IMG/VR virus record: IMGVR_UViG_3300025138_000499
Location: 1 to 20,379 of that record
DNA length: 20,379 bases
Reading direction: 5' to 3' (one strand)
DNA from: a virus
Shown here: positions 6,964 to 20,294 of the stretch, piece after piece
Layout of the letters: each line of letters opens with the position of its first letter
How positions within the stretch are numbered: the stretch's first letter is position 1
Notes under the pieces: generated by a model
Database searches by the model: none
Seen by the model: the letters and a program-made list of their open reading frames with translations, nothing else
What the model was told of the DNA's origin: nothing
Made by a program: the position numbers and the translations under genes

Positions 6964-7121
6964 TCAGATTTCCAAATTGTCCAGATACCCCATGCGATTG
7001 CAATACCAGCAGCAATCTTCGCAAGTGGTGCCATGAATAGAATCATAAGTCCTAGTCCAATGCATACTGCACCATCCCAAGATGTTCTTTCACCAACTCT
7101 GTTTTTTATCCAATTTATCAT
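6960..7121 (-). CDS. Two-helix small membrane protein, 53 residues; candidate holin-type protein
   Basis: This short frame starts with an ATG at 7121, overlapping the previous stop (ATGA), and ends with a TGA that overlaps the next ATG in the same way. The product begins MINWIKNRVGERTSWDGAV and then has two hydrophobic stretches (about 18-30 and 33-50) separated by APLAK, ending in KSE. The short amphipathic N-terminus and helical hairpin suit a class II holin-like plan. The perfect fit of both junctions shows it is a real gene. I recall similar small WDGA-containing membrane proteins in T4-like marine phages, with no assigned function. The holin role is a guess from size and context. Confidence 0.78.
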   Translation of the reverse strand: MINWIKNRVGERTSWDGAVCIGLGLMILFMAPLAKIAAGIAIAWGIWTIWKSE

Positions 7122-7612
7122 TTTAGTCTCCTATATTGCTCAAAGGCAAGTTTTGTATTACGAGTTTTAAAGTCCTTCTTACGCATAATTGTTTTCGCAA
7201 CAAGTTCTAACTCACCCCCTTTGAGATTTAATGCAAACGGCATATTTACATCTGTTCGCATATCATTTAACACCGCTTCGGCATCAGGCCCAAGTTGTGC
7301 TATCTTTTTACCAAACTTCTTATACGACTGTTTAAAAAGTCTAGTGAGTTCAGCAGTGGTAATTTGTTTCTTATTTCTTTCGTCATTCACCCTGTCGAGA
7401 AAGTGTCGAGTGAATTCTACATCTATACCAACAGCACCAAACAATCTGTCTGCGTACTTCTCTAGTTGGTCTAAATCTGTTTTGGTAATTTCTTTTTGTG
7501 CATGAAGGTCAACGATTGGATTCATTGTACCAAGACCAGCCGTAACGGCATTCGCACTTAGGTCTGCGATTGGTTTCTGAAAATTATATGCAACTTCTCT
7601 AAATGAGTGCAT
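7118..7612 (-). CDS. Conserved phage protein with FTRHFLDRV motif, 164 residues
   Basis: Residues 1-45 look like a separate N-terminal segment. The core (about 60-160) contains DVEFTRHFLDRVNDERNKKQ (H70, R74, R79), a helix with LFKQSYKKFGKKIAQLG, then strands FALNL and ELELVAKTIMRKKDFKT. The pattern of [ST]-x-H-x3-R near the start with later basic strands resembles small RNase-type toxin folds such as DUF4258/BrnT, but the match is only by eye and weak. I recall similar domains in T4-like marine phages without known function. Its stop overlaps the 53-residue gene as ATGA. Confidence 0.8.
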   Translation of the reverse strand: MHSFREVAYNFQKPIADLSANAVTAGLGTMNPIVDLHAQKEITKTDLDQLEKYADRLFGAVGIDVEFTRHFLDRVNDERNKKQITTAELTRLFKQSYKKFGKKIAQLGPDAEAVLNDMRTDVNMPFALNLKGGELELVAKTIMRKKDFKTRNTKLAFEQYRRLK

Positions 7613-9122: not shown

Positions 9123-9524
9123 TTACATAATCTTTGCTAGAATTCTATGCGTTCCCCCACTTGTTCTCTCAAATACAAAGTTTAATGAACGTCCACTCTC
9201 TGGTTGGTCATCAAACTCGTCAATCGGTGTATCTGCACTTTTACCAAATGCACCACCGTATTGAATTAGAGGAACAGATACTTCTCCACTTTCCTCAGTA
9301 AATTGAACATCACCAAAGTGAAGACCAACTCTCATGAGTTTTTGTCTCATCTCACTAACTGCTTTTTCTGGATTAAGATATTCTCTATCTGCAACCGCAC
9401 CAACATATGCATTTAATCTTTCAATAACTGCATCACTGGTTAAGTCACCAAGCATCATATCTCCATCTACAGGTTCAGCACCGTGTGAAGAACCTTCTTT
9501 TACATATTGATTAAACGTCTTCAT
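9123..9524 (-). CDS. Candidate internal virion protein with capsid-targeting-like N-terminus, 133 residues
   Basis: The protein begins MKTFNQYVKE then GSSHGAEP. This closely follows the T4 capsid-targeting sequence of internal proteins (MKTYQEF... ending at a prohead-protease site of the type hydrophobic-x-Glu). Predicted cleavage is after E10. The remaining 123 residues form a small alpha/beta domain with a helix at 30-72, strands VGLHFGDVQF and VSVPLIQYGGAFG, an acidic loop and a C-terminal strand pair. The function is unknown. The N-terminus suggests it is packed in the head. The gene overlaps the 63-residue gene upstream by 14 bases. Confidence 0.8.
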   Translation of the reverse strand: MKTFNQYVKEGSSHGAEPVDGDMMLGDLTSDAVIERLNAYVGAVADREYLNPEKAVSEMRQKLMRVGLHFGDVQFTEESGEVSVPLIQYGGAFGKSADTPIDEFDDQPESGRSLNFVFERTSGGTHRILAKIM

Positions 9525-9702
9525 TTTCTTCCCCTGTCACTTCTTCATCAAATCCATCTTCAGCATTTGGATTAACCTCAAGAATTTCTTGAAGAGCTTG
9601 AGATTCTTTTTTTACTTCAGCAGGTTTTTCTACTGGTTCAACTTTTCGTTCAACCTTTGTAGGCATCGGCATTCCACCAGCACCATATCTGATTGTTTCC
9701 AT
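9511..9702 (-). CDS. Small acidic, low-complexity protein, 63 residues
   Basis: The product starts METIRYGAGGMPMPTKVE, continues with a Lys/Glu/Pro/Val-rich linker (KVEPVEKPAEVKKESQ) and ends very acidic (DGFDEEVTGEENEDV). It looks disordered. A strong ribosome site (TAAGGAG, fused to the previous stop codon) supports it as a real gene. Small Met/Pro-Gly starts like this are common in virion genes, but no function is recognised. Confidence 0.7.
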   Translation of the reverse strand: METIRYGAGGMPMPTKVERKVEPVEKPAEVKKESQALQEILEVNPNAEDGFDEEVTGEENEDV

Positions 9703-9713
9703 AACTTTACTCC

Positions 9714-10193
9714 TTAGTTAATTACACCAGCACCATTACTTGCAATTGCATACCACTTACTGTTAGTAAACAATAAAGTTGCAGATTCGCCAATTGCGTT
9801 TAATCGTACTTGGTTAGTTCCTGTTGCAGTACTGCCCCAGTTAGTTACTGTCAAGTTATATGTCGAACTGGTTGATGGTGCAGTTGTCATCACAATAATT
9901 TTGATTTGACCATTTGTACCGTCACCTAAAGTTCCAGTTGCAGTTGTACTTGAAGATACTCCATTCAAATCAACGTGTGTGACTGAAGTAGTTGTATTTG
10001 GTGCAACACTACCTGTAATAGATTGTGCAGTACCATCCAACGCAATATAGGTTGGAATGTTGTTAAACAGGTTTGACACACTAATATGTTTATTAACTGG
10101 TGTACCACTTGGGTCATCAATTACATGAAGTAAATCTTCACTAGCGATTGCATTACCTAGATTACTTAATGCTGTAATTTTCTTATCTGCCAT
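9714..10193 (-). CDS. Small virion structural protein, fibre-like, 159 residues
   Basis: The N-terminus (MADKKITALSNLGNAIASED, then LLHVIDDPSGTPVNKHIS) matches an attachment segment shared by many phage tail-fibre or decoration proteins that bind a common partner. The rest is Thr/Ser/Asn/Gly-rich beta sequence (TGTLGDGTNGQIKIIVM) with a final strand pair around LLFTNSKWYAIASNG, typical of a small trimeric beta domain. The ribosome site is good (AGGAG). It probably forms part of the tail or a fibre; the exact place in the virion is not known. Confidence 0.82.
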   Translation of the reverse strand: MADKKITALSNLGNAIASEDLLHVIDDPSGTPVNKHISVSNLFNNIPTYIALDGTAQSITGSVAPNTTTSVTHVDLNGVSSSTTATGTLGDGTNGQIKIIVMTTAPSTSSTYNLTVTNWGSTATGTNQVRLNAIGESATLLFTNSKWYAIASNGAGVIN

Positions 10194-10213
10194 TTTTTAT
10201 CTCCTATAAACCA

Positions 10214-10483
10214 TCAACTCATCACCGCAGCGGCGACATTGTTTGAACCCCTTTTCTTCTTTGGTTCAGATGGAATGCTACTGGTAATATCTTTATCATT
10301 ACCATCACTTAGTTGTTGTAAAAACAAATCACACTGTTGAATTGCACCACTTACGGCATAAATCTGTGCAGTGATATTTGTCTTCTTTTGTTCCAGTTCA
10401 TTGAGTGCAGACTTGTGTTGAACAAGTTCTGCATCCAATGTCTGTTTTCTTATATTAATTTCAGTTTCAGTCAATGCTGACAT
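10214..10483 (-). CDS. Small coiled-coil protein, 89 residues
   Basis: Residues 3-58 form a predicted coiled coil (EINIRKQTLDAELVQHKSAL, then LEQKKTNITAQIYAVSGAIQ). A polar, basic tail follows (EPKKKRGSNNVAAAVMS). It lies between two structural genes with a clear ribosome site (GGAG) and an AT-rich 39-base gap upstream. It may be a chaperone or structural partner of the neighbouring fibre-like proteins, but no family is recognised. Confidence 0.75.
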   Translation of the reverse strand: MSALTETEINIRKQTLDAELVQHKSALNELEQKKTNITAQIYAVSGAIQQCDLFLQQLSDGNDKDITSSIPSEPKKKRGSNNVAAAVMS

Positions 10484-10522
10484 ACTATATCTCCATTATT
10501 TAAAATTATATACTATTATATA

Positions 10523-12022
10523 TTAACTATCTGGGGTTGCAACATCTTCTGCATCACCACCAATACTTGAAGCGGCAACTAGAGTTTCATAGTGAACTCT
10601 ACCAGCACGACCACCAGTACCTACGGTTTTCTTAACCCAACCAATGTGAGCAACCTCACTTGCGTTTGTATCTCCATCAGAACCAAGTCCTTGAGATGCA
10701 ACAGCAGTTGCTTGAGTGGCACCAGTTACAATTGTAAATGTTTGAGCATTATGTCCAGTACCGATATTGATTGCAGTTCCACCAGAAGTAGCAGCAATCT
10801 TAAAGGTATTTGCAGTCTTATCTCTTACAAATACAGTAGCAGCATTTGCTACGTTAGTCATCAAAGTACCACCACCAATTTGGTTGTAAGTAATTTGGTC
10901 TGTATCAGATAAACCGTGTCCAGTAAATGTAATAACATTTGTAGTAGCGTTGACTGCACTTGTAGGAATAGTCATTTTAGGTACTTCAACTGTAATAGCA
11001 GGAACTGCTTGATAATCAGAACCACCATTAGAAACTGTGATACCAGTTACTTCTCCACCAGAAATGGTTGCAGCAGCAACAGCTTGAATACCTTCAAGTG
11101 TCTGTGCATTGTTACCCTGTCCAGTTAAAGTAATATCTGTACCAGCGTTTGCATTGCTAAGTGAAGATGCAAGTTGAATATTATTTGCGTCTACTCTGAT
11201 TACAAAGTAAGAAGTGTTATCGGCAAGACCAGCAAGTGCAGTTCCACCACCGTCTTGATATTTAACTTCTGTACCAGTTCTCATATTGTGACCAGTAATT
11301 TCAATTGAATCAGATGCAGTAGTAACTTTTGCAGCTGCAATAGTTCTTACAGTTGGTACTGGAATAGTAACAGTTGGTGCTTGTACATATCTTGCACCAG
11401 CAACATTGATTGCAATATCAGTAACATTGTCTACACCAGCAACTGCTTCTGCACTAGTGATACCGAAAATATTTGCATCAATCTGTGAACCACCAGATGC
11501 AAAGTTTACAGGGGGTCTTGTTACTGTACAAGCAGAACCACTATTTGTTGATGGTGTGAACGCTTCAACAGCAGTAAATGCTTTAGTAGAAGTTCCTTGG
11601 AACGACTGTGCGTTATTACCTGTACCAGTGATATTAATCTGTGTACCACCAGAAGTTGCAGATACAGTAAATGCATTTGCACTTGAAACAGTCTTAACAA
11701 AGACAGTTCCACCGTCTGCAATACCTGTACCAGCGATTGCAGTTCCACCACCAGCACGATATACTAACGGTGTGTTTGCAACAAATCCATGATTTGTTAT
11801 TGTTATTTGTTCGTTTGATGCATTGACAGCAGATGTTGCAACAGTTCTAGTAGGTTGCAAATTTGCAACTCTTACTTTATCTCCGTTGTCATCAATGACA
11901 ATATCACCAACTTTGATTTCAGATGTATCAGCACTTGAGTTACCTTGTACTATTGCACTAGCGTTAGTGAATGTATAAGTACCTGTTAATGCAGAGCCAT
12001 CATTCATACTCCATGAGCTCAT
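10523..12022 (-). CDS. Repeat-rich virion structural protein (fibre or decoration), 499 residues
   Basis: The protein is nearly all beta, rich in Thr, Ala, Gly, Asn and Val, with few Cys. Three copies of an about 80-residue repeat are visible at 64-143, 231-311 and 353-431. Each has an HGF/HGL/HNM turn, a GGGT motif, a TVFV or SYFV strand and an ending like NNAQ. Between them lie two shorter units with AxYVQAPTVTIPVP (211-224) and SDYQAVPAITVEVPK (335-349). The N-terminus (SWSMNDGSALTGTYTFTN) and the C-terminus (VAHIGWVKKTVGTGGRAGR) resemble other marine phage structural proteins. It likely decorates the tail or head surface. A CATAAATA late-type box and an AAGGAG ribosome site precede it. 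Confidence 0.85.
   Translation of the reverse strand: MSSWSMNDGSALTGTYTFTNASAIVQGNSSADTSEIKVGDIVIDDNGDKVRVANLQPTRTVATSAVNASNEQITITNHGFVANTPLVYRAGGGTAIAGTGIADGGTVFVKTVSSANAFTVSATSGGTQINITGTGNNAQSFQGTSTKAFTAVEAFTPSTNSGSACTVTRPPVNFASGGSQIDANIFGITSAEAVAGVDNVTDIAINVAGARYVQAPTVTIPVPTVRTIAAAKVTTASDSIEITGHNMRTGTEVKYQDGGGTALAGLADNTSYFVIRVDANNIQLASSLSNANAGTDITLTGQGNNAQTLEGIQAVAAATISGGEVTGITVSNGGSDYQAVPAITVEVPKMTIPTSAVNATTNVITFTGHGLSDTDQITYNQIGGGTLMTNVANAATVFVRDKTANTFKIAATSGGTAINIGTGHNAQTFTIVTGATQATAVASQGLGSDGDTNASEVAHIGWVKKTVGTGGRAGRVHYETLVAASSIGGDAEDVATPDS
10616..11834. repeat. Three-fold internal repeat in the structural gene
   Basis: The three about 240-base units encode residues 64-143, 231-311 and 353-431 of the structural protein. 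Shared words in the protein include GGGT, the xxFxV strand, SGGTxIN (first and third copies) and NAQ at the end. The copies have diverged, the second more than the others, so they are old duplications, though they could still recombine. Confidence 0.6.
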
Positions 12023-12058
12023 TTTAATTCTCCTTTAAAGACTTTGTATATACTCTTC

Positions 12059-12066
12059 TATTTATG
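12059..12066 (-). promoter_or_regulatory. T4-type late promoter box CATAAATA
   Basis: Read on the minus strand the sequence is CATAAATA, one base from the T4 late consensus TATAAATA. It lies 37 bases upstream of the ATG of the large structural gene, in a 44-base gap right after the stop of the HAD gene. The leader also contains the palindrome GTATATAC. Position and sequence both suit late transcription of virion genes. Confidence 0.6.
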
Positions 12067-12594
12067 TTATTTAAAACCTAGTCTCTTTAGTTCTGCAAGT
12101 GTGTTACTAGGTGATATATGATGTATACCAATTCCACCCATTGCTTCCCATTCATGAATATTCTTAATATAGTCATCAATTAAGAGATTAGATTTACCGT
12201 TTATCATTGCATACTTTTGTTTGTCTGCTCTCAATACTAAATGAATACGAGACTTTTGCGTTAGTCTTGCATTCTTCTTCAACCATGCAAGTTTACCCTT
12301 CCGACTGTTTGGGTCTTTGGTTGAATATGCAGATAAAATGTGTGCATCATATTTGTTTATGAATGTCCACATTCTTTGAGCGCCCATCATCCAATCAAGG
12401 TTTGCCCAAAAGTCTTTAGTGGAAGAAATTTTAATCCACTTCTCCCTCTTATCCGCTTTTGGAAATGGTACTCCAAGTACTTCCTCTGAACCTTTTAGAA
12501 AGTTACAAAGCACCATATCCATATCGCAATAGATGGTTGGAAGTTCTTCGTTCTCCTCTGCCACCAAATTATATAATTCATCAAATCGTTTCAC
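12067..12594 (-). CDS. HAD-superfamily phosphatase / 5'-nucleotidase-like protein, 175 residues
   Basis: HAD hydrolase motifs are in order: IYCDMDMVL (nucleophile D24 and acid/base D26), HILSAYS (motif II, S88), ADKQKYA (motif III lysine near 125-127), and LLIDDY (motif IV, D140-D141). The size and motif spacing are close to those of phage and bacterial 5'(3')-deoxyribonucleotidases, so it may dephosphorylate nucleotides; the substrate is not proven. The start is a GTG at 12594 sharing a base with the previous stop (TAGTG). The first residues MKRFDELYNLVAE end in a hydrophobic-x-Glu site like the other proteins of this cluster, which suggests it may travel in the capsid. Lack of a strong ribosome site suggests translational coupling. 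Confidence 0.82.
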   Translation of the reverse strand: MKRFDELYNLVAEENEELPTIYCDMDMVLCNFLKGSEEVLGVPFPKADKREKWIKISSTKDFWANLDWMMGAQRMWTFINKYDAHILSAYSTKDPNSRKGKLAWLKKNARLTQKSRIHLVLRADKQKYAMINGKSNLLIDDYIKNIHEWEAMGGIGIHHISPSNTLAELKRLGFK

Positions 12595-13424
12595 TATACT
12601 TTATTCTTCTCATTTTTAATTTTGGGCATTTTTGGTGAAGTTTCTATATCAGTCATCGTCTTTCCAGAGTCAGTCTTCAATTTTGTTTTCTTAGGTTTCT
12701 GGTCATCATCCATACCATCACCAGTTTTGTCCTGTTCCATATCTTGAGACTCAGTTTTCTTTGCAGCTTCATCCCACATTGCTCTAACTGATTCTGCAAC
12801 AGATACTAATGCTTCACCCATTGACTTTGAAACTGCCTTACGTCTTTTGTGTAAGAACTTATCAGAGTCATCTACGTCACCATCGTTGTCAATGTCCTTA
12901 TCCTTACGGTCACCAAACTTCTTCTTAACCGCTTTAGGTTGAACTGCATCAAGACCGTCACCGTCATCAGACTTATCGTTCTTGTTAGTTTCAGACTTCA
13001 TAACTTTTGGTTTAAACTTTGTCATGATTTCCTTATGATACTTACTCATATTTTTCTTACCAGCGTCAACCATAAGTTCACCATTAGAGATGTTATCATC
13101 ATTGATGTCAAAACTCATTAACTGAACCGCATCAAGCATCTTCTTTGCTGCCATTGCATCGTTCTTGTTTTTGAATTTGTACTCATAGTACTGATTTTCA
13201 TCAAGAACTTCTTCTTCGATGTAGTCTTCTACGTTGTATTCTTTACTTCCAATAGTGAAAGTTTTTTCACCATTCTTCTTTGCCATTTTAGCAGCATAGA
13301 TGAAATTATTTTCTTCTTTTGGTTTTTCACCCTTTTCCTTTTTAGAAATGGCGATAGCAGCTTGTTGTGCAGTACTTACTGCTTCTTCAAGACTGCCAGG
13401 TTTTGTATCAAAATATTTTGACAT
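12594..13424 (-). CDS. Charged modular protein with EF-hand/dockerin-like Ca-binding loop, 276 residues
   Basis: The protein is Lys/Asp/Glu-rich and largely disordered outside two parts. Residues about 55-103 look like a small domain (FTIGSKEYNVEDYI, then YYEYKFKNKNDAMAAKKML). Residues 177-188, DIDNDGDVDDSD, fit the D-x-D-x-DG-x5-D calcium loop and are followed by KFLHKRRKAVSK, a pair I recall in other marine phage virion proteins. Candidate prohead-protease sites are SLEE (after 14), VLDE (after 76) and possibly SVAE (after 211). The composition resembles a head core or internal protein. It has a strong ribosome site (AGGAG) and a TAATG junction upstream. Confidence 0.78.
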   Translation of the reverse strand: MSKYFDTKPGSLEEAVSTAQQAAIAISKKEKGEKPKEENNFIYAAKMAKKNGEKTFTIGSKEYNVEDYIEEEVLDENQYYEYKFKNKNDAMAAKKMLDAVQLMSFDINDDNISNGELMVDAGKKNMSKYHKEIMTKFKPKVMKSETNKNDKSDDGDGLDAVQPKAVKKKFGDRKDKDIDNDGDVDDSDKFLHKRRKAVSKSMGEALVSVAESVRAMWDEAAKKTESQDMEQDKTGDGMDDDQKPKKTKLKTDSGKTMTDIETSPKMPKIKNEKNKV

Positions 13425-15535
13425 TATCTTTCTCCTAGTTGTTTTGTTATAGCAGCAAGGTACGCAGCCATGTTTTCTGGTACTTCATTAGTACTCTCTT
13501 TAATATCGTCAATAGATGCACCCATATCACCAATAGCAAATCCTACAGTTCCATCTCTCTTGTATAGGTACTTCTTAACTGCCTTCTCATTACCCACAGT
13601 TGCAAGTGTAATCTTTTCTACTTTACCTTTGTTTACTGTGTTCTTTGACTTAACAATGTATTCTACATAGTCTTTACCTTGACTAATTGTAGAACTGGTT
13701 TTGAGTTTAATCTTAGAACCCTTCTTTAGTTTGTCAAACATTTTGAGCAACTTAGGGTCATTCATCTTCATACCCTCATCAAGTTCTTCACCCTCTGGAA
13801 CATGAGAGGATGTTAAGTACATATTGAGTTCAAATTTACTACCCATGTTGTACACTTGGACAGACCACATCTTACCCTTTTCAGTTTCAAGAGTATATGA
13901 GTTTTCTTTGCCAGAACTAGGTTTTTTAGGCCCTGTTGCAACTTTACTATCAATCTCATCTTTCTTAATTGGTTGTCCTTTTTTCTTTGCAAATGCAGTT
14001 GCGTGTTGCATTGCAGATGAAAAGTCTTTATGGAATATATCGTAACCAGACGCAGACTTACCAGCTTCAAACTTTCTTTCATCAAGTTCGACTTCTTCCA
14101 TACGTTTACCTTGAGTTGCACTCGTATTAGTTGGAAACTTATCCATCTCATCTGGGAATGGTCTGTTAACCATCATATCACCCTTTTTTGGTGCAAGAGG
14201 TTTTGTTAGAGTAACAACTCTACCTTTGTTTCTTCTTGCCATATCCTTTGCATCAGATTCCTTAGATGAAAAACCAATGACTTTACCCTTTTTATCTACT
14301 GCGGCAAAATTGTAATTGACCGCTTCATTAATTGCTCTATCAAGTACAAAGTCTTCTCTTCTGATTTTACCAAGTTTGTTTATATCATCTGCTTTATAAT
14401 TATGTTTAAGCATAAGTCTTGACATTGCCATCATACTAACAAAAGGTATATCTGCTTTATATAATTGTTCTAAACCATTTTTATTTGAATCAATTTTATC
14501 AAATATTTTCATTAAAGGTGTTGGGTTAATCTTTTTACCCTTCATAGGTTCATATGCTTTTTTAAGTTTATCAATCATACCATCACTAAACTTTGCTTCA
14601 TTAATATTTTCAGACTTTACACTTCTATGATTATATGCAATTGTAGATAACATTTGTCCAGGCTTTGACTTTGGATACATCTGTTGAAAAGTTTGTGGGT
14701 CATTTTTGCCAATAATATCTAAAATTGTTTCAAGTGGGTCTGTATCTAAATTACCAATAAACTTTTTAAGTTTTTCTCTTGAACCAGCATCACTTGCTTG
14801 AACGTACAATGCTCTTGCCTTTTGAAAATCTTTCTTATCCAAACCACCAGTTTTAATAATTCCGTCCAATGCCTTTGCGGCCTTTTCTTGTGGGCGAGTA
14901 TCTTTAAAAGAACCAGGCTTGTATGCCATCTCACCAAGTGACTTACACTCACAATCATCTTCACAGACACATGGTGTTTCTTCACAACAGGCACACTCTT
15001 CTTGTTCAGTTTCTTCTTTCATAAGTGATTTGATTGTTTTCAAATCAAGTTTCATTTTCTTTGCAATGTCTTCAGCAGACATTCCTTTTGCAATGTAACC
15101 ATGAAGTTCTTTCATTCTACCTTCATCAATACTTCCATAATCTAGTTGTTGTTCATTCATCAATGCATCATGATTCTTTATTGAATATGCTTCTGCTTCA
15201 TCCTTTGTATCAAACTCTGCAACCTTCTTATCTTTCATATCGTAAACGCAGTATTTACCAGTTTCTTTATTGAGTTTGACATGACTCTTTGGGTCTTTAG
15301 TATGTTCTGCATCTGAATCATACATTTCGTTTTGTCTTTTCAAAACAGCAGCAACCTGTGGGTGGTCTGACAATCCTCTTTTAAGTTTCTCAATTTGCTT
15401 AACAGCACCTGTCATATTTCCACCAGCATATCTTTTATCTGATGCAATACCAATTGCCATCTTTATTTGTTTTTGAGAGAACGCCTCTGACATTTCGGCA
15501 AGGGCTTGTCTCATAGTTTTTGTATATTTACTCAT
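13424..15535 (-). CDS. Modular putative internal head polyprotein with Cys cluster, 703 residues
   Basis: This protein is a string of small modules divided by hydrophobic-x-Glu sites: after E14 (ALAE), E138 (SIDE), E202 (SLGE), E313 (INE), E404 (INE), E486 (ELDE), E587 (ELDE) and E680 (IKE). The modules include a helical domain with AGGNMTGAVKQIEKLKRGLS (37-56), a helix-turn-helix-like unit (SAEDIAKKMKLDLKTIKSLM, 153-172), a cysteine-rich knot (C181, C183, C184, C189, C191, C195, C197) that could bind zinc, a helical unit at 314-400, and three likely beta modules after 405. Several look familiar from T4-like marine phages as parts of varied mosaics. No enzyme motif was found. The first residues suit capsid targeting. 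The function after packaging is unknown. The ribosome site is AAAGGA. Confidence 0.82.
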   Translation of the reverse strand: MSKYTKTMRQALAEMSEAFSQKQIKMAIGIASDKRYAGGNMTGAVKQIEKLKRGLSDHPQVAAVLKRQNEMYDSDAEHTKDPKSHVKLNKETGKYCVYDMKDKKVAEFDTKDEAEAYSIKNHDALMNEQQLDYGSIDEGRMKELHGYIAKGMSAEDIAKKMKLDLKTIKSLMKEETEQEECACCEETPCVCEDDCECKSLGEMAYKPGSFKDTRPQEKAAKALDGIIKTGGLDKKDFQKARALYVQASDAGSREKLKKFIGNLDTDPLETILDIIGKNDPQTFQQMYPKSKPGQMLSTIAYNHRSVKSENINEAKFSDGMIDKLKKAYEPMKGKKINPTPLMKIFDKIDSNKNGLEQLYKADIPFVSMMAMSRLMLKHNYKADDINKLGKIRREDFVLDRAINEAVNYNFAAVDKKGKVIGFSSKESDAKDMARRNKGRVVTLTKPLAPKKGDMMVNRPFPDEMDKFPTNTSATQGKRMEEVELDERKFEAGKSASGYDIFHKDFSSAMQHATAFAKKKGQPIKKDEIDSKVATGPKKPSSGKENSYTLETEKGKMWSVQVYNMGSKFELNMYLTSSHVPEGEELDEGMKMNDPKLLKMFDKLKKGSKIKLKTSSTISQGKDYVEYIVKSKNTVNKGKVEKITLATVGNEKAVKKYLYKRDGTVGFAIGDMGASIDDIKESTNEVPENMAAYLAAITKQLGER

Positions 15536-15546
15536 TGTTTTTTCCT

Positions 15547-17517
15547 TTAGTTATCTACCTTTGCACCACCACGCCATTGGTAGCAACTCCAATACTTTGC
15601 TTTCCACTTAGGGCCAGGGTCTTTATCACAACCGTGTCTTGCACGAAATGACTTCCTTGCTTTTGGGTCATCACGATTAATAGACATATTTGGGTCACCA
15701 AAACGAACTACAACAACTTTACCCTTTTCGTTATTAACGTAAACTTTGAACTTCTTATTTGGGTTTTCGCTTGTACGAATTGGGTCGTTTAGTTTTACTT
15801 TCTTTCCTTGATATTCAGACTCTACGATAGTATGTTCATACAAACCATCACAATCATCACAACAAGGAAGTTTTGATAACATCTTATTATAGGTTTCTGT
15901 TAGTTTTGTTAACCAGTTATCTCCAAATCTTTCTTCATATTTATCTCTTGTATTTTCATCCAAGTACCATTCTTCAACGGATTCTTTAGTCGCAGATTGG
16001 CCTGGTGTCATCTTACGAGTGTGGTCACTAAATTCTTTACCAATCTCTTTTGATTCACCTCTTACTTTTGCAGCAAGGTCAGCATCTGCTTTACCCCAAG
16101 TACCAGATGACTTGGTTGTAAAAGAGTTCACTCTCGCAAACGCCCACTGTTGTGCAGTAGTGCCAGGTCTATGTCCTGTCTTGTATGCAGCCATTCCTCT
16201 GTCATATACTTTCTTTAGAATTCCGTACGGCATACCAGACTTTTCTGCCTTCTTGACCAATCCATCAATCTTTTCATCCAGAACGTCTTCTTCTTTCATT
16301 CCAAGTTTTTTAGCAGGATTACCTCTAATTCTTTTTGCGAGTGTATCGTTATCAGAACGTCTATTAACTTTAACTTTGAGATTGGGTAACTTTTTATCTT
16401 TTCTCATATAAGTTGTTTTTTCATCAACTTCAATTTCCTCTTTAGGAACACAGTTAGGAACTTTTTTACCGTTCTTCATTTTAGTTCCGACCTGTTTATG
16501 AGTATCCCAACATGGGTCTTCATCCTCACCATACATCTGTTTGAACTTCTTAGTATGTTTAGACGGTTTTGTATCTGCGTCAGCATCGCCAGGCGCAGGG
16601 CCAGACTTACTCTTTGCAAAATGGGCAGCACGTTTCTTTTTAGTTGCGACTGACATTTCATCACCATCAGCATCTTTTGCAAAATACTTTGCTGGTTGAG
16701 TACCTTCTCTATCTTTGATATCCTTGTCCTGTTTGACTTCTTCAAGGTTGTGTAACCACACTCTTCTCAAGTCTTCAAACACAACATAGTTTGTACCTTT
16801 GCGAATGATTGTGCCTTCGTCACCATCAGTTGTTTTCACAACATCACCAACATTCCAAATCTCTCCACGAATGTATAGGTCACGATTTAGTTCTTCTAAT
16901 GTAAAATTATATTCTTCTTTGATATTCATGAACTTACGAACATCAGCAAACAGTTTTTCTCCCTGTTTAAAACTAGAGGGTAATCCACCCTTAAAGGATT
17001 CGTAATCGTTTGCAGCTGCAGCAGCACGCATTTTAGATGCAGACATTCCAGTTACACCTTCTGCGTCTGGGTCACGTTCTCCAGCAGATATTACTTTAAT
17101 ATCATCAAATCCGTAAAAACCGTGTCTACCTTCTTCACCATTATATTTGTTAAGTAGATTATCAAACTCTGCAACTCTATCAGAACCGACAACCATGACA
17201 ACTGCTTTATGTCCTTTATTATGCAACTCTGTTGCAACTTCAAACACATTTCTTGCTTTACTGACTACGATGTTCTTTTTGTATTTTGGGAACATTGCTC
17301 TCATGTATGCAACCTTCTTATTATGTGGAAGGGGGTCTTTTTTAGGATTTTGCGAATGAGATGGATACACATACATTGGAGCACCAGAGTTTTTACTCTG
17401 TTCTTTTGAAAGTGCATCTATAAGTTTTTCGTGACCAGTTGTTGGTGGATTGAATCTACCAAATGTAAATACAGCGGTATCACCTCTTGCTTCATGTATT
17501 TGATTGAAACTTTTCAT
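15547..17517 (-). CDS. Multi-domain protein with HxGH-type nucleotidyltransferase head, 656 residues
   Basis: I chose the ATG at 17517 because GGGAGAT lies just upstream and the protein then begins MKSFNQIHE-ARGD, a capsid-targeting-like segment; a longer frame to 17577 would overlap the previous gene. Residues 15-198 form a cytidylyltransferase-fold domain of the NMN adenylyltransferase type: GRFNPPTTGH (20-29) is the HxGH loop and SASKMR (159-164) matches the ISSTxxR motif. Next come an SH3-like strand unit (221-258), a DPCWDTHKQVGTKM...VPNC unit (335-356), a helical domain ending GTWGKADADLAAKV (416-485), and a C-terminal domain with CCDDC (552-556), FGDPNM and RARHGCDKDPGPK. Hydrophobic-x-Glu sites lie after 9, 366, 415 and 521, at the domain borders. 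The nucleotidyl substrate is unknown; NAD-related chemistry is only a possibility. Confidence 0.82.
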   Translation of the reverse strand: MKSFNQIHEARGDTAVFTFGRFNPPTTGHEKLIDALSKEQSKNSGAPMYVYPSHSQNPKKDPLPHNKKVAYMRAMFPKYKKNIVVSKARNVFEVATELHNKGHKAVVMVVGSDRVAEFDNLLNKYNGEEGRHGFYGFDDIKVISAGERDPDAEGVTGMSASKMRAAAAANDYESFKGGLPSSFKQGEKLFADVRKFMNIKEEYNFTLEELNRDLYIRGEIWNVGDVVKTTDGDEGTIIRKGTNYVVFEDLRRVWLHNLEEVKQDKDIKDREGTQPAKYFAKDADGDEMSVATKKKRAAHFAKSKSGPAPGDADADTKPSKHTKKFKQMYGEDEDPCWDTHKQVGTKMKNGKKVPNCVPKEEIEVDEKTTYMRKDKKLPNLKVKVNRRSDNDTLAKRIRGNPAKKLGMKEEDVLDEKIDGLVKKAEKSGMPYGILKKVYDRGMAAYKTGHRPGTTAQQWAFARVNSFTTKSSGTWGKADADLAAKVRGESKEIGKEFSDHTRKMTPGQSATKESVEEWYLDENTRDKYEERFGDNWLTKLTETYNKMLSKLPCCDDCDGLYEHTIVESEYQGKKVKLNDPIRTSENPNKKFKVYVNNEKGKVVVVRFGDPNMSINRDDPKARKSFRARHGCDKDPGPKWKAKYWSCYQWRGGAKVDN

Positions 17518-17518
17518 A

Positions 17519-17929
17519 TTAATCTCCCACCGCATCGGCCGCTGCCATTTTGTTTTTCTTAATTCGTTCACCTTCACCAGCTTTCAACTGTCTCAAAAGT
17601 TTCTTTGAAATTTTGTCGATGACCTTACGTTTCTTTGCAACGATATTCTGGTCAATTTGAATTCTTTTTTGGATGGGGAGTTCTTTGTAATTTACAGCAG
17701 GGCCCAAACTACGTTTGATGACCATCATTTTTGCTTGACGTTTTGCAATCGCCTGTAACGCATCTGGGTCACGGCGTCTTACTTTTGCTCGCTTCTTCTT
17801 CATTTTAGTAGAAGACTTTCTTGCGAGAAGTTTCATACGTCTACCCATCTTCCTACGCTGTTGCATAATTTCAGATGGAGACTTCTTTTCCTCTACGGTT
17901 TCTTCGTATAAGTCTTTAAAATTTCTCAT
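17519..17929 (-). CDS. Small, very basic protein, 136 residues
   Basis: The protein has a very high share of Lys and Arg (MGRRMKLLARKSSTKMKKKR at 28-47, then AKVRRRDPDALQAIAKRQAK). It is almost entirely helical in prediction. It begins MRNFKDLYEE, which suits the capsid-targeting pattern with cleavage after E9 or E10. A basic protein inside the head would bind packaged DNA, as T4 internal proteins do. I recall homologues in other T4-like marine phages next to the same neighbours. The start overlaps the previous stop as ATGA, and the next gene starts one base after its stop. Confidence 0.82.
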   Translation of the reverse strand: MRNFKDLYEETVEEKKSPSEIMQQRRKMGRRMKLLARKSSTKMKKKRAKVRRRDPDALQAIAKRQAKMMVIKRSLGPAVNYKELPIQKRIQIDQNIVAKKRKVIDKISKKLLRQLKAGEGERIKKNKMAAADAVGD

Positions 17930-19158
17930 TTATCCCATGCCTTAATTGCAGTAAAGTTATTAAAACTAAATTCCATTCTATCTACGAGTTTTACTGCATC
18001 GCCTGATACCCTGTCAATTGCAACGTAACCCTCTGGGTTAGTTACTTTAAATCCATTTTTTGTCTTAATAAAGGTATCAGTTAAACCCTTTACACTATTT
18101 AGTTTTTTTACAATCCCCATCTTAGCGTTAACCAGATGAGATTGAAATGCGATAATTTGTTCTAAATTAGTTAAATCTTTCTTAAATTCTCTTGCGTATT
18201 CTCTACCTTTTATTTCCAGAGCATCTTTACTCTTTTGGGTCTTAACCTTTCCAATCTCTTTTAGAAAGTGATTTTCTACCCAAGTAACATATCCAGCAGC
18301 GTGTTGTTTTGGGTTCTTAACTGCTTCACCCTTACGAACCTTTGAGTTATCATATGTTTTGAGAGATGCACCCACCAACTTACCTGTCAGTGAATCCTGT
18401 AGTCGTAAAAACTTGGTCAACTTTGCAGAGTTAATTCTCTGGAATGTTTTACCAGCATTTGATAGGTGTCCAGTAACTTCTGCATTCTCAGTTGATGTAA
18501 ATGTTGCAGTACCAGATGCATCCTTATAAGTTGCATCATCCATCCATACTGTAGATGTCTTTGTCAGTCCTTTGATGTTTGCACCGAATGATGCTTTCAT
18601 GTCTTGTAGTGCAGAACCAGTATAAGTTGTGTGCCAGACAATACCAACTTTTGCTTTGTTGATTACCTTACCCAATTCACTATCTGTTGGAATTGCATAT
18701 ACAATAGTATTAGGCTGGAAAGTATAATACTTGGTGCCATCAATGGTTGTTGTTTCAACATCATCTGTAAACATGAGGTCACCTTGTAATACCCCATTGA
18801 TACCCAACTTAGAAAATTCTTTAAGCGATACTTTAAATTTAGAATTGAGAGCTCCAGATAAATCAGCATCTATTTCTGCCTCCGTCTTGTACAGTTTTGG
18901 GTTTACATTAAATACAGATTTCTTTGCAACAAAGAATTTACCATCTTCTGGGTCAATACCAGCAAAGATTGCAGGAGCACCATCCCATTTCACAGTCATG
19001 TTGACTGAACTACGACTTTCACCAGAGAACATATCTCTTAGTGAACGCATAAAGTTGATTGCAGCACGACCACCTGGCACACCAAAGTTAAGTATCTCAT
19101 CTTCGATATGTTCAAGGTGCAGATTCTTTCCTGCTTTGTTTTCCATTAATGTTAACAT
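17926..19158 (-). CDS. Ligase-like nucleotidyltransferase (RNA/DNA ligase superfamily fold), 410 residues
   Basis: The motifs of covalent nucleotidyltransferases are seen in order: TVKWDGAPAIF (motif I, candidate nucleotide-linked K57 and D59-G60), FFVAKKSVFN after it, VLQGDLMF at 123-130 where motif III should fall, NPEGYVAID (motif IV, E376) and DAVKLVDR (motif V, K390). This fits an ATP-dependent ligase or capping-type enzyme. I saw no clear OB domain, and the 170-residue insert (about 200-360) is unusual. I recall this family as a large uncharacterised group in T4-like phages. Starts at 19158 or 19146 are possible. MLTLME gives a hydrophobic-x-Glu site after residue 6. The stop and start junctions are TAATG upstream and ATGA downstream. 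Confidence 0.72.
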   Translation of the reverse strand: MLTLMENKAGKNLHLEHIEDEILNFGVPGGRAAINFMRSLRDMFSGESRSSVNMTVKWDGAPAIFAGIDPEDGKFFVAKKSVFNVNPKLYKTEAEIDADLSGALNSKFKVSLKEFSKLGINGVLQGDLMFTDDVETTTIDGTKYYTFQPNTIVYAIPTDSELGKVINKAKVGIVWHTTYTGSALQDMKASFGANIKGLTKTSTVWMDDATYKDASGTATFTSTENAEVTGHLSNAGKTFQRINSAKLTKFLRLQDSLTGKLVGASLKTYDNSKVRKGEAVKNPKQHAAGYVTWVENHFLKEIGKVKTQKSKDALEIKGREYAREFKKDLTNLEQIIAFQSHLVNAKMGIVKKLNSVKGLTDTFIKTKNGFKVTNPEGYVAIDRVSGDAVKLVDRMEFSFNNFTAIKAWDK

Positions 19159-20294
19159 TAGAATTTAACCTTTGGGTTGCCGTTTGAAACATCAAGTCTT
19201 ATACCTAAAATTTCTTGCACTTTATCAATACCAGAAACAAGTAATGTCTTAACTTTGTTCCAAATATAAGATAGCATTTTTTTAAGAATGTTCTTTAAAA
19301 ATTGAACACCAGATTTTACACCAGCAACAACTTTATCAAATAATCCTTCATGTAATAATTCTTCTTCATATGCGTGTTCAAACGCTTCTTTAAATATACC
19401 CTTTGTAGCAGTCCATGCACTACCACCTGTTCCAGATGTTTTAAATGAAATATTAAATGAAGTTTGAGATGCAACATAGTCAACATATTTGTCATTGATT
19501 TGAACATAATCAGATTTACCTTGTTCATCAAATTTCAAAATATGTGTTGCTTTTGGTAGTTGGTCTTTAAATTTTTGATTTCCTGTCATTGCTTCACGAA
19601 CTACTTCTCTGTTAATCTCTTTTGTATTAAGTAAATCCTGTAGAGATTGAGTCATTGCAGTTTGTTTTTGCAATCTTTCTTTTACCCAATTAGTCAAATC
19701 ATCGTCAACACCATCTTTAATTGCTCGTTTAAAATCAGTTATTTGCCCACCAGCTGGTAATTTAAAAGAAATAAAATCCTTTTCAATTTCGTCAGTTAGT
19801 GAGTTCCAAGACTCATTCAGTGCTTTGCTTTTAACACTATCAGATAAATTGTCATATGCTGCAGCAAGAGTTGCAAGAGTTTCGGCTTTGCCACCAGACA
19901 TTAATTGTGAACCACCATACTTCTTTAGACTGATATTTTGTTTTCCAATATACATATCAGTTTTTGGTGTCTTTGTAGAACCACCAGCAGGTTTACCTGT
20001 GGTTTGAATGAAGTAAGAATCCCATTTAGGGTTGAGAGGAGCATTACCAGAACCAAAGTGTTTCATAGTTCCACTAGGTCTTCCAAATGAATTTTTTACA
20101 ATCTTATCACCAACCTCTAACCAATCATCATAAAGGGGTTTCCAATTGGTTTCTGCTGATTTAATTGCTTTTTGCTTATCTTGACGCAAGGACTTTATAT
20201 TGTAAGCGGCACAGATAATATTTTCAAACTCTGCACCCTTCGGTTTTTTGCCCTTTGCCTCAACAAGTTCTATGTGTTCTGTGAGACTTAACAT
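19158..20294 (-). CDS. PD-(D/E)XK nuclease-like protein with amphipathic C-terminal peptide, 378 residues
   Basis: Residues 17-146 carry a pattern of restriction-endonuclease-like folds: KGAEFENIICAAYN (E22/E24), KTPKTDMYIGKQNISLKKYG (D113, K124) and GSQLMSGGKAETLATL (128-143). This reads as E...D...SxK, suggesting a metal-dependent nuclease, although the match is by eye. I recall the ISLKK...SQLMSG block in many T4-like marine phages in proteins called structural. The first residues MLSLTEHIELVEAKGKK give a hydrophobic-x-Glu site after E12. A second site, LLHE, follows at E316, and the last 62 residues are an amphipathic, Lys-rich helical region (GLFDKVVAGVKSG at its start). It is the first gene after the composite promoter and has a good ribosome site (GGAG). 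Confidence 0.75.
   Translation of the reverse strand: MLSLTEHIELVEAKGKKPKGAEFENIICAAYNIKSLRQDKQKAIKSAETNWKPLYDDWLEVGDKIVKNSFGRPSGTMKHFGSGNAPLNPKWDSYFIQTTGKPAGGSTKTPKTDMYIGKQNISLKKYGGSQLMSGGKAETLATLAAAYDNLSDSVKSKALNESWNSLTDEIEKDFISFKLPAGGQITDFKRAIKDGVDDDLTNWVKERLQKQTAMTQSLQDLLNTKEINREVVREAMTGNQKFKDQLPKATHILKFDEQGKSDYVQINDKYVDYVASQTSFNISFKTSGTGGSAWTATKGIFKEAFEHAYEEELLHEGLFDKVVAGVKSGVQFLKNILKKMLSYIWNKVKTLLVSGIDKVQEILGIRLDVSNGNPKVKF

Follow-up and report, generated by a model that had tools for sequence, protein, structure and literature searches.

Introduction

In the giant phages phiKZ and SPN3US, ejection proteins are processed by the prohead protease, and many head proteins are cut C-terminal to Glu. 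The internal proteins (IPs) of phage T4 open with a short shared sequence; IPII and IPIII start with MKTYQEFIAE/A and IPI with MKTFKEFTSTTTPVSTITE/A (MKTFKEF..ITE/A), a slash here and below marking the known or predicted cut. Residues 4 and 7 of the 10-residue T4 sequence serve in targeting and residues 8 and 10 in processing, with the cut falling after L/I-x-E (PMC9026906). The virion-associated set of cyanophages comprises NMNAT/cytidylyltransferases, an S-adenosylmethionine (SAM) hydrolase, an APH-like kinase and a Cas9-like nuclease. Here we analyse IMG/VR record IMGVR_UViG_3300025138_000499 (the window, 20,379 bases at its full length). It is part of the genome of a marine myovirus that is T4-like and belongs to the Kyanoviridae, and eight of its gene products open with a segment of the T4 type. 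With a probability of about 0.8, the block that holds these genes encodes proteins that this phage loads into its head by means of targeting sequences.

Among isolates, the window best matches the four Methylophilales phages Melnitz, which are also T4-like members of the Kyanoviridae. The genes of the window follow the order seen in Melnitz at 12.2-28.9 kb. The predicted cargo block, of approximately 20 genes, lies between replication genes (RecA and a DnaB-like helicase) and the primase/ribonucleotide reductase genes, and a corresponding block occupies the same position in P-SSM4, S-SM1, S-SZBM1 and HTVC008M. The Melnitz genome encodes gp21, gp22 and gp23, the last with FLSE/AAPT in its N-terminal region; for these three genes the comparison rests on Melnitz, as the 20-kb window does not extend to them.

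Targeting-type segments at eight N-termini

All eight N-termini flagged in an earlier note on this DNA were found as quoted there, all on the minus strand, as are the modules and junctions located below and the gene at 7118..7612. The likeness to the T4 capsid-targeting sequence proposed in that note is borne out by MKTFNQYVKE/G in the window against MKTYQEFIAE/A in T4 IPIII. The window segments are of the T4 type, with aromatic or hydrophobic residues near positions 4 and 7 and an (L/I/V)-x-E end within about 10-19 residues, two of the eight copies being weak or short. Two of the starts call for comment: the product of 12067-12594 requires a GTG start, and that of the gene at 15547 starts at the ATG at 17517, with GGGAG upstream and a further ATG 18 bases earlier. 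In most Melnitz orthologues the hydrophobic-x-Glu (Phi-x-E) end is retained while the remaining segment diverges; the orthologues start with MQGFKTFLSE/A, MLTLINFSKYITE/D, MKKFSEIIE/A, MKNFKNHIAE/E and MKSIVEVTSINE/E.

The predicted cargo gene at 9123..9524, of unassigned function, carries the tag MKTFNQYVKE/ (9495-9524); Phi-x-E falls within residues 4-20 in 23 of its 25 non-redundant homologues (6.5 in shuffles), and the broad motif defined below occurs in 15 against 0.6 expected. A small basic protein at 17519..17929 begins with MRNFKDLYE/ (17903-17929), and all 15 of its homologues have an N-terminal Phi-x-E (shuffle 6.9). The predicted cargo protein at 19158..20294, likewise of unassigned function and with no phmmer match in PDB, opens with MLSLTEHIELVE/ (20259-20294); MQGFKTFLSE/A is the start of its Melnitz orthologue. 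A conserved KTD..SLKK stretch in this protein (19158-20294) may be reminiscent of PD-(D/E)xK nucleases.

Some of the calls required revision. The segment MLTLME had been called weak; it is real, because a whole clade of DUF6267 keeps a six-residue version (MINLLE/G, MVTLLE/N, MISLME/N) and 36 of 37 DUF6267 proteins have Phi-x-E ahead of the core. The same judgement on SLEE stands, Melnitz having GSIES there. For the 703-residue protein, a site better conserved than the one originally proposed lies three residues later (..ALAEMSE/AFSQK), where homologues read ..ALQEIRE/GFSPK.

Enrichment of the segment and the DUF5754 contrast

The unique open reading frames (ORFs) of fetched IMG/VR loci were searched with a broad regular expression, M-x(1-4)-[FYL]-x-x-[FYH]-Phi-x-E, and the chance level was taken from shuffles of residues 2-17 within each ORF, which keep composition. 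The motif was present in 96 of 1,408 coding-strand ORFs against 1.9 expected, and in 1 of 782 antisense ORFs. These 96 matches fall in about 21 families that are mutually unmatched once the tag is removed. Counted over non-redundant homologues of the flagged genes, matches amounted to 15/25 (9123), 9/17 (12067), 5/21 (12594), 29/56 (15547), 8/15 (17519), 11/22 (17926) and 1/3 (19158, a test on three non-redundant homologues only), with shuffled expectations of 0.2-2.0. The unflagged neighbour families gave 0/14 (8120), 0/11 (7617) and 0/7 (9714), the last a tail-like gene which the earlier note had described as lacking the segment, and 5/26 against 1.2 expected for a further neighbour (8758).

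DUF5754, the last module of the window 15547 product, provides a natural control. Stand-alone DUF5754 genes of T4-like phages are tagged (MKTFKQYINE/AEYQGRQVKL, MKTFKQYITE/AEYQGRDVPL, MKKFKEYIEE/AEYQGREVEL), whereas in pelagic siphophages and podophages the stand-alone protein begins at the module itself (Kolga MAKYQGRTVKL, HTVC111P MAKYKGRTVKL); the copies of CRP-3, HTVC106P and Fussvirus are also untagged. Among the phages compared, which were grouped by phage type, the DUF5754 tag goes with the T4-like ones. At one and the same residue DUF5754 is preceded either by a tag (MKTFKQYINE/AEYQG) or by a linker (AELDE/AEYQG), and DUF5824 shows the same exchange.

Virion proteins of related phages

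Related phages give good support for a location in the head. Virions of S-SM1 (PMC3037559), S-CREM2 (PMC10665884), S-SCSM1 (PMC9602691) and S-SZBM1 (PMC9146016) contain members of the cytidylyltransferase family to which the window 15547 product belongs. The earlier note had suggested a motif search over the proteins of related phages for a tie to head location, and in S-CREM2 the strict matches indeed all belong to the virion list. The strict motif, M-x(1-4)-[FYL]-x-x-F-Phi-x-E, matches 5 of 219 S-CREM2 proteins, each of which appears among the published virion proteins (PMC10665884 Table 3); there is no match among the 167 undetected ones. The five are the SAM hydrolase (MKDFDSFLEE), gp13 (MKDLHSFLTE), the APH-like kinase (MKRFDAFLTE), gp136 (MQTFSMFFSE) and the cytidylyltransferase (MKNFSSFLTE). 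Among non-structural proteins this association has a Fisher p of 4e-5, a value that is optimistic because the motif was sharpened after the S-CREM2 N-termini had been seen. The polymerase, the ribonucleotide reductase and other non-structural enzymes are not in the S-CREM2 virion list. Virion detection extends to the modular proteins gp155 and gp160 of S-CREM2 and to S-SZBM1_139, three proteins with the same architecture as the predicted polyproteins of the window.

Two further features were observed in cyanophage proteins. The Cas9-like virion protein of S-CREM2 (L007:7704-10313) has RFASFMAE/A at residues 18-25 and a tag-like C-terminus, KTFRDFLN. S-SZBM1_139, which is in virions, and S-SM1_191 (L009:23989-25362, L010:19422-20843) contain long KKAGSA.. 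stretches that resemble histone H1 and may bind the packaged DNA.

Predicted modular polyproteins

Three of the eight flagged products appear from their sequences to be modular polyproteins, in which several sites like those at the tag ends recur within the chain, a feature that the earlier note had overlooked. The first, of 703 amino acids (13424..15535), carries the tag MSKYTKTMRQALAEMSE/ at 15485-15535, followed by module C (KQIKMAIGIASDKRYAGGN..; 15320..15475, residues 21-72), module B (GYDIFHKDFSSAM..; 13805..14065, residues 491-577) and module A (KMNDPKLLKMFDKLKKG..; 13490..13765, residues 591-682). Module B is preceded by the predicted junction EVELDE/R (P1 Glu 14078-14080) and module A by EELDE/G (P1 Glu 13775-13777). 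Further junctions are predicted between 14324 and 15124, at SIDE/G (15122), SLGE/M (14930), NINE/A (14597) and AINE/A (14324), and all four lie in or beside segments that AlphaFold predicts to be disordered. The model consists of folded beads, with a predicted local distance difference test (pLDDT) score around 90, linked by segments below 50, and the low-pLDDT segments contain Phi-x-E at 202, 313, 404, 486, 587 and 687. Foldseek searches of PDB and of viral models with this protein found no relative. Its C-terminus (13424-13480), MAAYLAAITKQLGER, is like the gp22 tails MSAYMSAISK (Melnitz) and MAAYVRGLGR (S-CREM2), and a second contact with the core is possible.

The second, of 276 amino acids (12594..13424), has the weak segment MSKYFDTKPGSLEE at 13383-13424 and putative internal sites VLDE/N (about 13197) and VAE/S (about 12792); its Melnitz orthologue carries an added module C behind VELDE/G. 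The third, of 656 amino acids (15547..17517), comprises the tag MKSFNQIHE/ (17491-17517), a cytidylyltransferase/NMNAT-like enzyme, a PCW..NCVP module, DUF5824 and DUF5754, with candidate junctions EVDE/K (16420), VLDE/K (16273), YLDE/N (15955) and TIVE/S (15820); phmmer found no match to it in PDB.

Modules are exchanged freely between genes and stand in varying order. In the window-Melnitz alignment, module C stands first in the 703-residue window protein and last in a different Melnitz protein, and the order of A and B is swapped. Across 217 IMG/VR loci the orders C-B-A, A-C-B, B-A-C, C-A-B and B-D-C-A were found. Most modules are preceded by (L/I/V)-x-E/(G/A/K/M), and stand-alone copies have a targeting sequence there instead. 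Similarly, where module C is N-terminal, the tag ends at the residue at which the linker does (MTRYSSTMTEALQEIRE/GFSPK vs EEVELDE/GYSPK). Phi-x-E is aligned at one position ahead of the module in 22/31 (C), 18/33 (A), 24/63 (B) and 21/42 (D) non-redundant sequences, on a background of 2.4% per position, and 1,000 shuffles of each linker's residues never attained these counts; module K was excluded, its junction falling within the stretch taken as core. Over 171 collected sites the linker consensus is EE-[VI/E]-E-[L/I]-D-E/[A/K/G/M/S]. The linker pattern occurs in just five Melnitz proteins, three of them in the block, and so cannot be taken for a widespread acidic motif. The post-Glu starts predicted in Melnitz include /ARGDTAVF, /AKSSTGYELYHK and /MKMDDPK.

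Predicted enzymes in the block

In addition to the cytidylyltransferase/NMNAT-like part of the 15547 product, two enzymes are predicted among the flagged proteins. The gene at 12067..12594 encodes a 5'-deoxyribonucleotidase-like (HAD/NT5C) enzyme with the tag MKRFDELYNLVAE/ at 12556-12594; it matches phrog_2643 (E 1.4e-26) and, below the cut-off of that family, PF06941, and it aligns to Melnitz MKSIVEVTSINE/EELPELYCDMD. The product of 17926..19158, with the short tag MLTLME/ (19141-19158), is DUF6267 (PF19782, E 3.5e-103), for which the Pfam entry gives function unknown. In 37 sequences K57-W-D-G60, E376-G-x-V379 and V389-K390 (KWDG, EGxV, VKxxDR) are invariant, so that motifs I (KxDG), IV (EGxV) and V with its Lys of the ATP-dependent ligase/capping nucleotidyltransferase superfamily are all present. 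The best structural rows for the DUF6267 model are mostly RNA and DNA ligases (Z <=7.8), and the Foldseek E-values are not significant. DUF6267 is likely to be a polynucleotide-ligase-like nucleotidyltransferase. In phrog_455, DUF6267 is fused to a cytidylyltransferase. Together these enzymes suggest a contribution to early NAD and nucleotide supply or to nucleic-acid repair, possibly against host defences.

Other genes and neighbouring observations

At 7118..7612 lies an unflagged gene in which the segment is degenerate (MHSFREVAYNF); in its family, 5 of 12 homologue N-termini carry the tag against 0.4 expected (MIRFNQYITE/QEITKSDLD, MKNFANYITE/QALSKSDLD). Tags occur on two Melnitz genes beyond the block (L003:15855-16523, L002:82-1131), namely a GGPGSGK-type P-loop protein (MKTFAELQE/G) and a RimK-like ATP-grasp protein (MTQKFSQFITE/E). 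Two hypothetical genes of S-SZBM1 between terminase genes (L005:32312-33126) have the perfect tags MKSFKSFLSE and MKTFKQYITE. At positions 1-1067, a fragment resembling a Rieske-type ring-hydroxylating oxygenase adjoins an IscA/HesB-like iron-sulfur protein, possibly as auxiliary metabolic genes.

Proposed mechanism and alternative readings

The earlier note's capsid-targeting reading gains support from the T4 match, the approximately 21 unrelated families, the DUF5754 contrast and the virion detection of relatives. By this reading, an N-terminal segment of 6-17 residues, aromatic near position 4, hydrophobic near position 7 and with a hydrophobic-x-Glu end, would dock each protein on the scaffolding core during prohead assembly, as in T4. 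The prohead protease, a gp21 homologue, would then cut after the Glu, and the mature protein would stay in the head with the DNA and enter the cell along with it; by analogy with T4, both cleavage and injection into the host are expected. Three of the genes would encode small folded modules on linkers that are flexible and acidic and that end in (L/I/V/M)-x-E/(G/A/K/M). Since the modules are joined by linkers with protease-type sites, one tag would load several proteins and the same protease would free them. Processing of the polyproteins into separate proteins, with release of the modules, we regard as somewhat more likely than not. On balance we also lean, somewhat less firmly, towards a general scheme for marine T4-like phages, in which the prohead protease would run a retrovirus-like polyprotein scheme in the capsid: modules behind one tag, cut before DNA packaging, would be injected as a kit, and the junctions would be the seams of shuffling.

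Several observations weigh against the cargo reading or its parts. In cyanophages, the proteins encoded where the window has the 19158 gene are without the segment, and the DUF6267 homologues have no tag. Many S-CREM2 virion proteins are also untagged, and the tag is therefore not the sole route. Virion presence is taken from published proteomes of relatives and not of the window phage, a looser motif gives p 0.01 on S-CREM2, and the S-CREM2 authors caution that non-structural proteins may be carry-over after CsCl purification (PMC10665884). With regard to the junctions, Phi-x-E is only moderately above chance in the low-confidence segments (9/18, p 0.026), it occurs also within folded domains, where cutting is not expected, and its conservation beside a module may be partly inherited along with that module.

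The tags could target the head as in T4 while the modular proteins act as core or scaffold fillers, cut to peptides that leave the head so that nothing useful is delivered. T4 gp22 and gp67 are indeed cut at several such sites (PMC9026906), the 703-residue C-terminus MAAYLAAITKQLGER resembles gp22 tails, and many modules are basic and of unassigned function. The modules are nevertheless well folded in prediction and conserved over diverse loci, several also exist as stand-alone tagged genes, one polyprotein is headed by an enzyme, and modular relatives are present in mature virions, which makes this explanation doubtful. That the N-terminal tag is removed and the internal acidic (L/I)DE linkers persist, as uncut flexible spacers or docking motifs, is unlikely. 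Acidic flexible linkers are common, and the consensus EE[VI]E[LI]DE is more acidic than the N-terminal tags; against this, conservation is centred, far beyond what linker shuffles give, on a Phi-x-E at the module edge with G/A/K/M after it, and the same module follows tag or linker at an identical residue (MKTFKQYINE/AEYQG vs AELDE/AEYQG).

An intracellular role of the proteins, with the segment serving for instance oligomerisation or membrane contact, would reduce virion detection to carry-over, for which the authors of the S-CREM2 and S-SCSM1 studies allow (PMC10665884, PMC9602691). We consider this very improbable, as at least four independent studies detected the cytidylyltransferase in virions, the five strict-motif S-CREM2 proteins are all listed while the polymerase, the ribonucleotide reductase and other non-structural enzymes are absent, and DUF5754 is untagged in phages that are not T4-like. 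Finally, the idea that the shared N-termini merely combine the early-codon bias of AT-rich phages, in which Lys, Asn and Phe are frequent early codons, with chance Phi-x-E can be rejected with near certainty: a very loose motif is barely enriched in S-CREM2 (30 matches vs 22.9 expected), Phi-x-E within the first 12 residues being too loose to inform there, but with composition held the broad motif gives 96 against 1.9 expected and 1/782 antisense, and the neighbour families, which share the bias, mostly lack the motif and so count against it at the family level.

Cyanophage virion enzymes have repeatedly been seen without a loading mechanism, some authors suspecting contamination, and a readable tag would explain them. 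For the abundant marine phages that infect cyanobacteria, SAR11 and OM43, it would also allow head cargo to be predicted directly from sequence. Cutting at the internal junctions, if it occurs, would make this a polyprotein system of phages, with several proteins loaded by a single tag, and a modular, sequence-defined protein set would be delivered in the first minute of infection, a key time for takeover and counter-defence.

Comparison with known systems

The window shares with T4 IPI, IPII, IPIII and Alt, which are processed by gp21, a segment MK-[ST]-[FY]-x-x-[FYI]..[LIV]-x-E/ on unrelated proteins, and relatives of the window phage, like T4, encode gp21, gp22 and gp23. T4 cargo consists of small basic proteins and an ADP-ribosyltransferase, with one mature product per gene, whereas the predicted cargo of the window is mainly enzymes and modular polyproteins. 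Several internal (L/I)-x-E sites per chain, and the gp22-like tail of the 703-residue protein, recall the T4 core proteins gp22 and gp67; unlike these scaffold proteins, whose peptides are mostly lost, the window has conserved folded modules between the sites, swapped between genes. The likeness to phiKZ and SPN3US lies in cutting after Glu, predicted in the present case, and in propeptides with redundant sites; the phage lineage differs. Polyproteins of several shuffled modules, each with a site in front of it, are to our knowledge not described from the giant phages, and open-access literature searches on prohead-protease cleavage of phage polyproteins and on the three DUFs yielded no description of such a system. 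The closest likeness in content is to the virion enzymes of the cyanophages S-SM1, S-SCSM1, S-SZBM1 and S-CREM2, which include a homologous cytidylyltransferase with the same targeting segment, as read here. In the text consulted, the authors of those reports proposed no loading mechanism; the targeting segment would supply one, and the window would add nucleotidase-like and ligase-like enzymes, together with polyproteins, to the cyanophage virion set.

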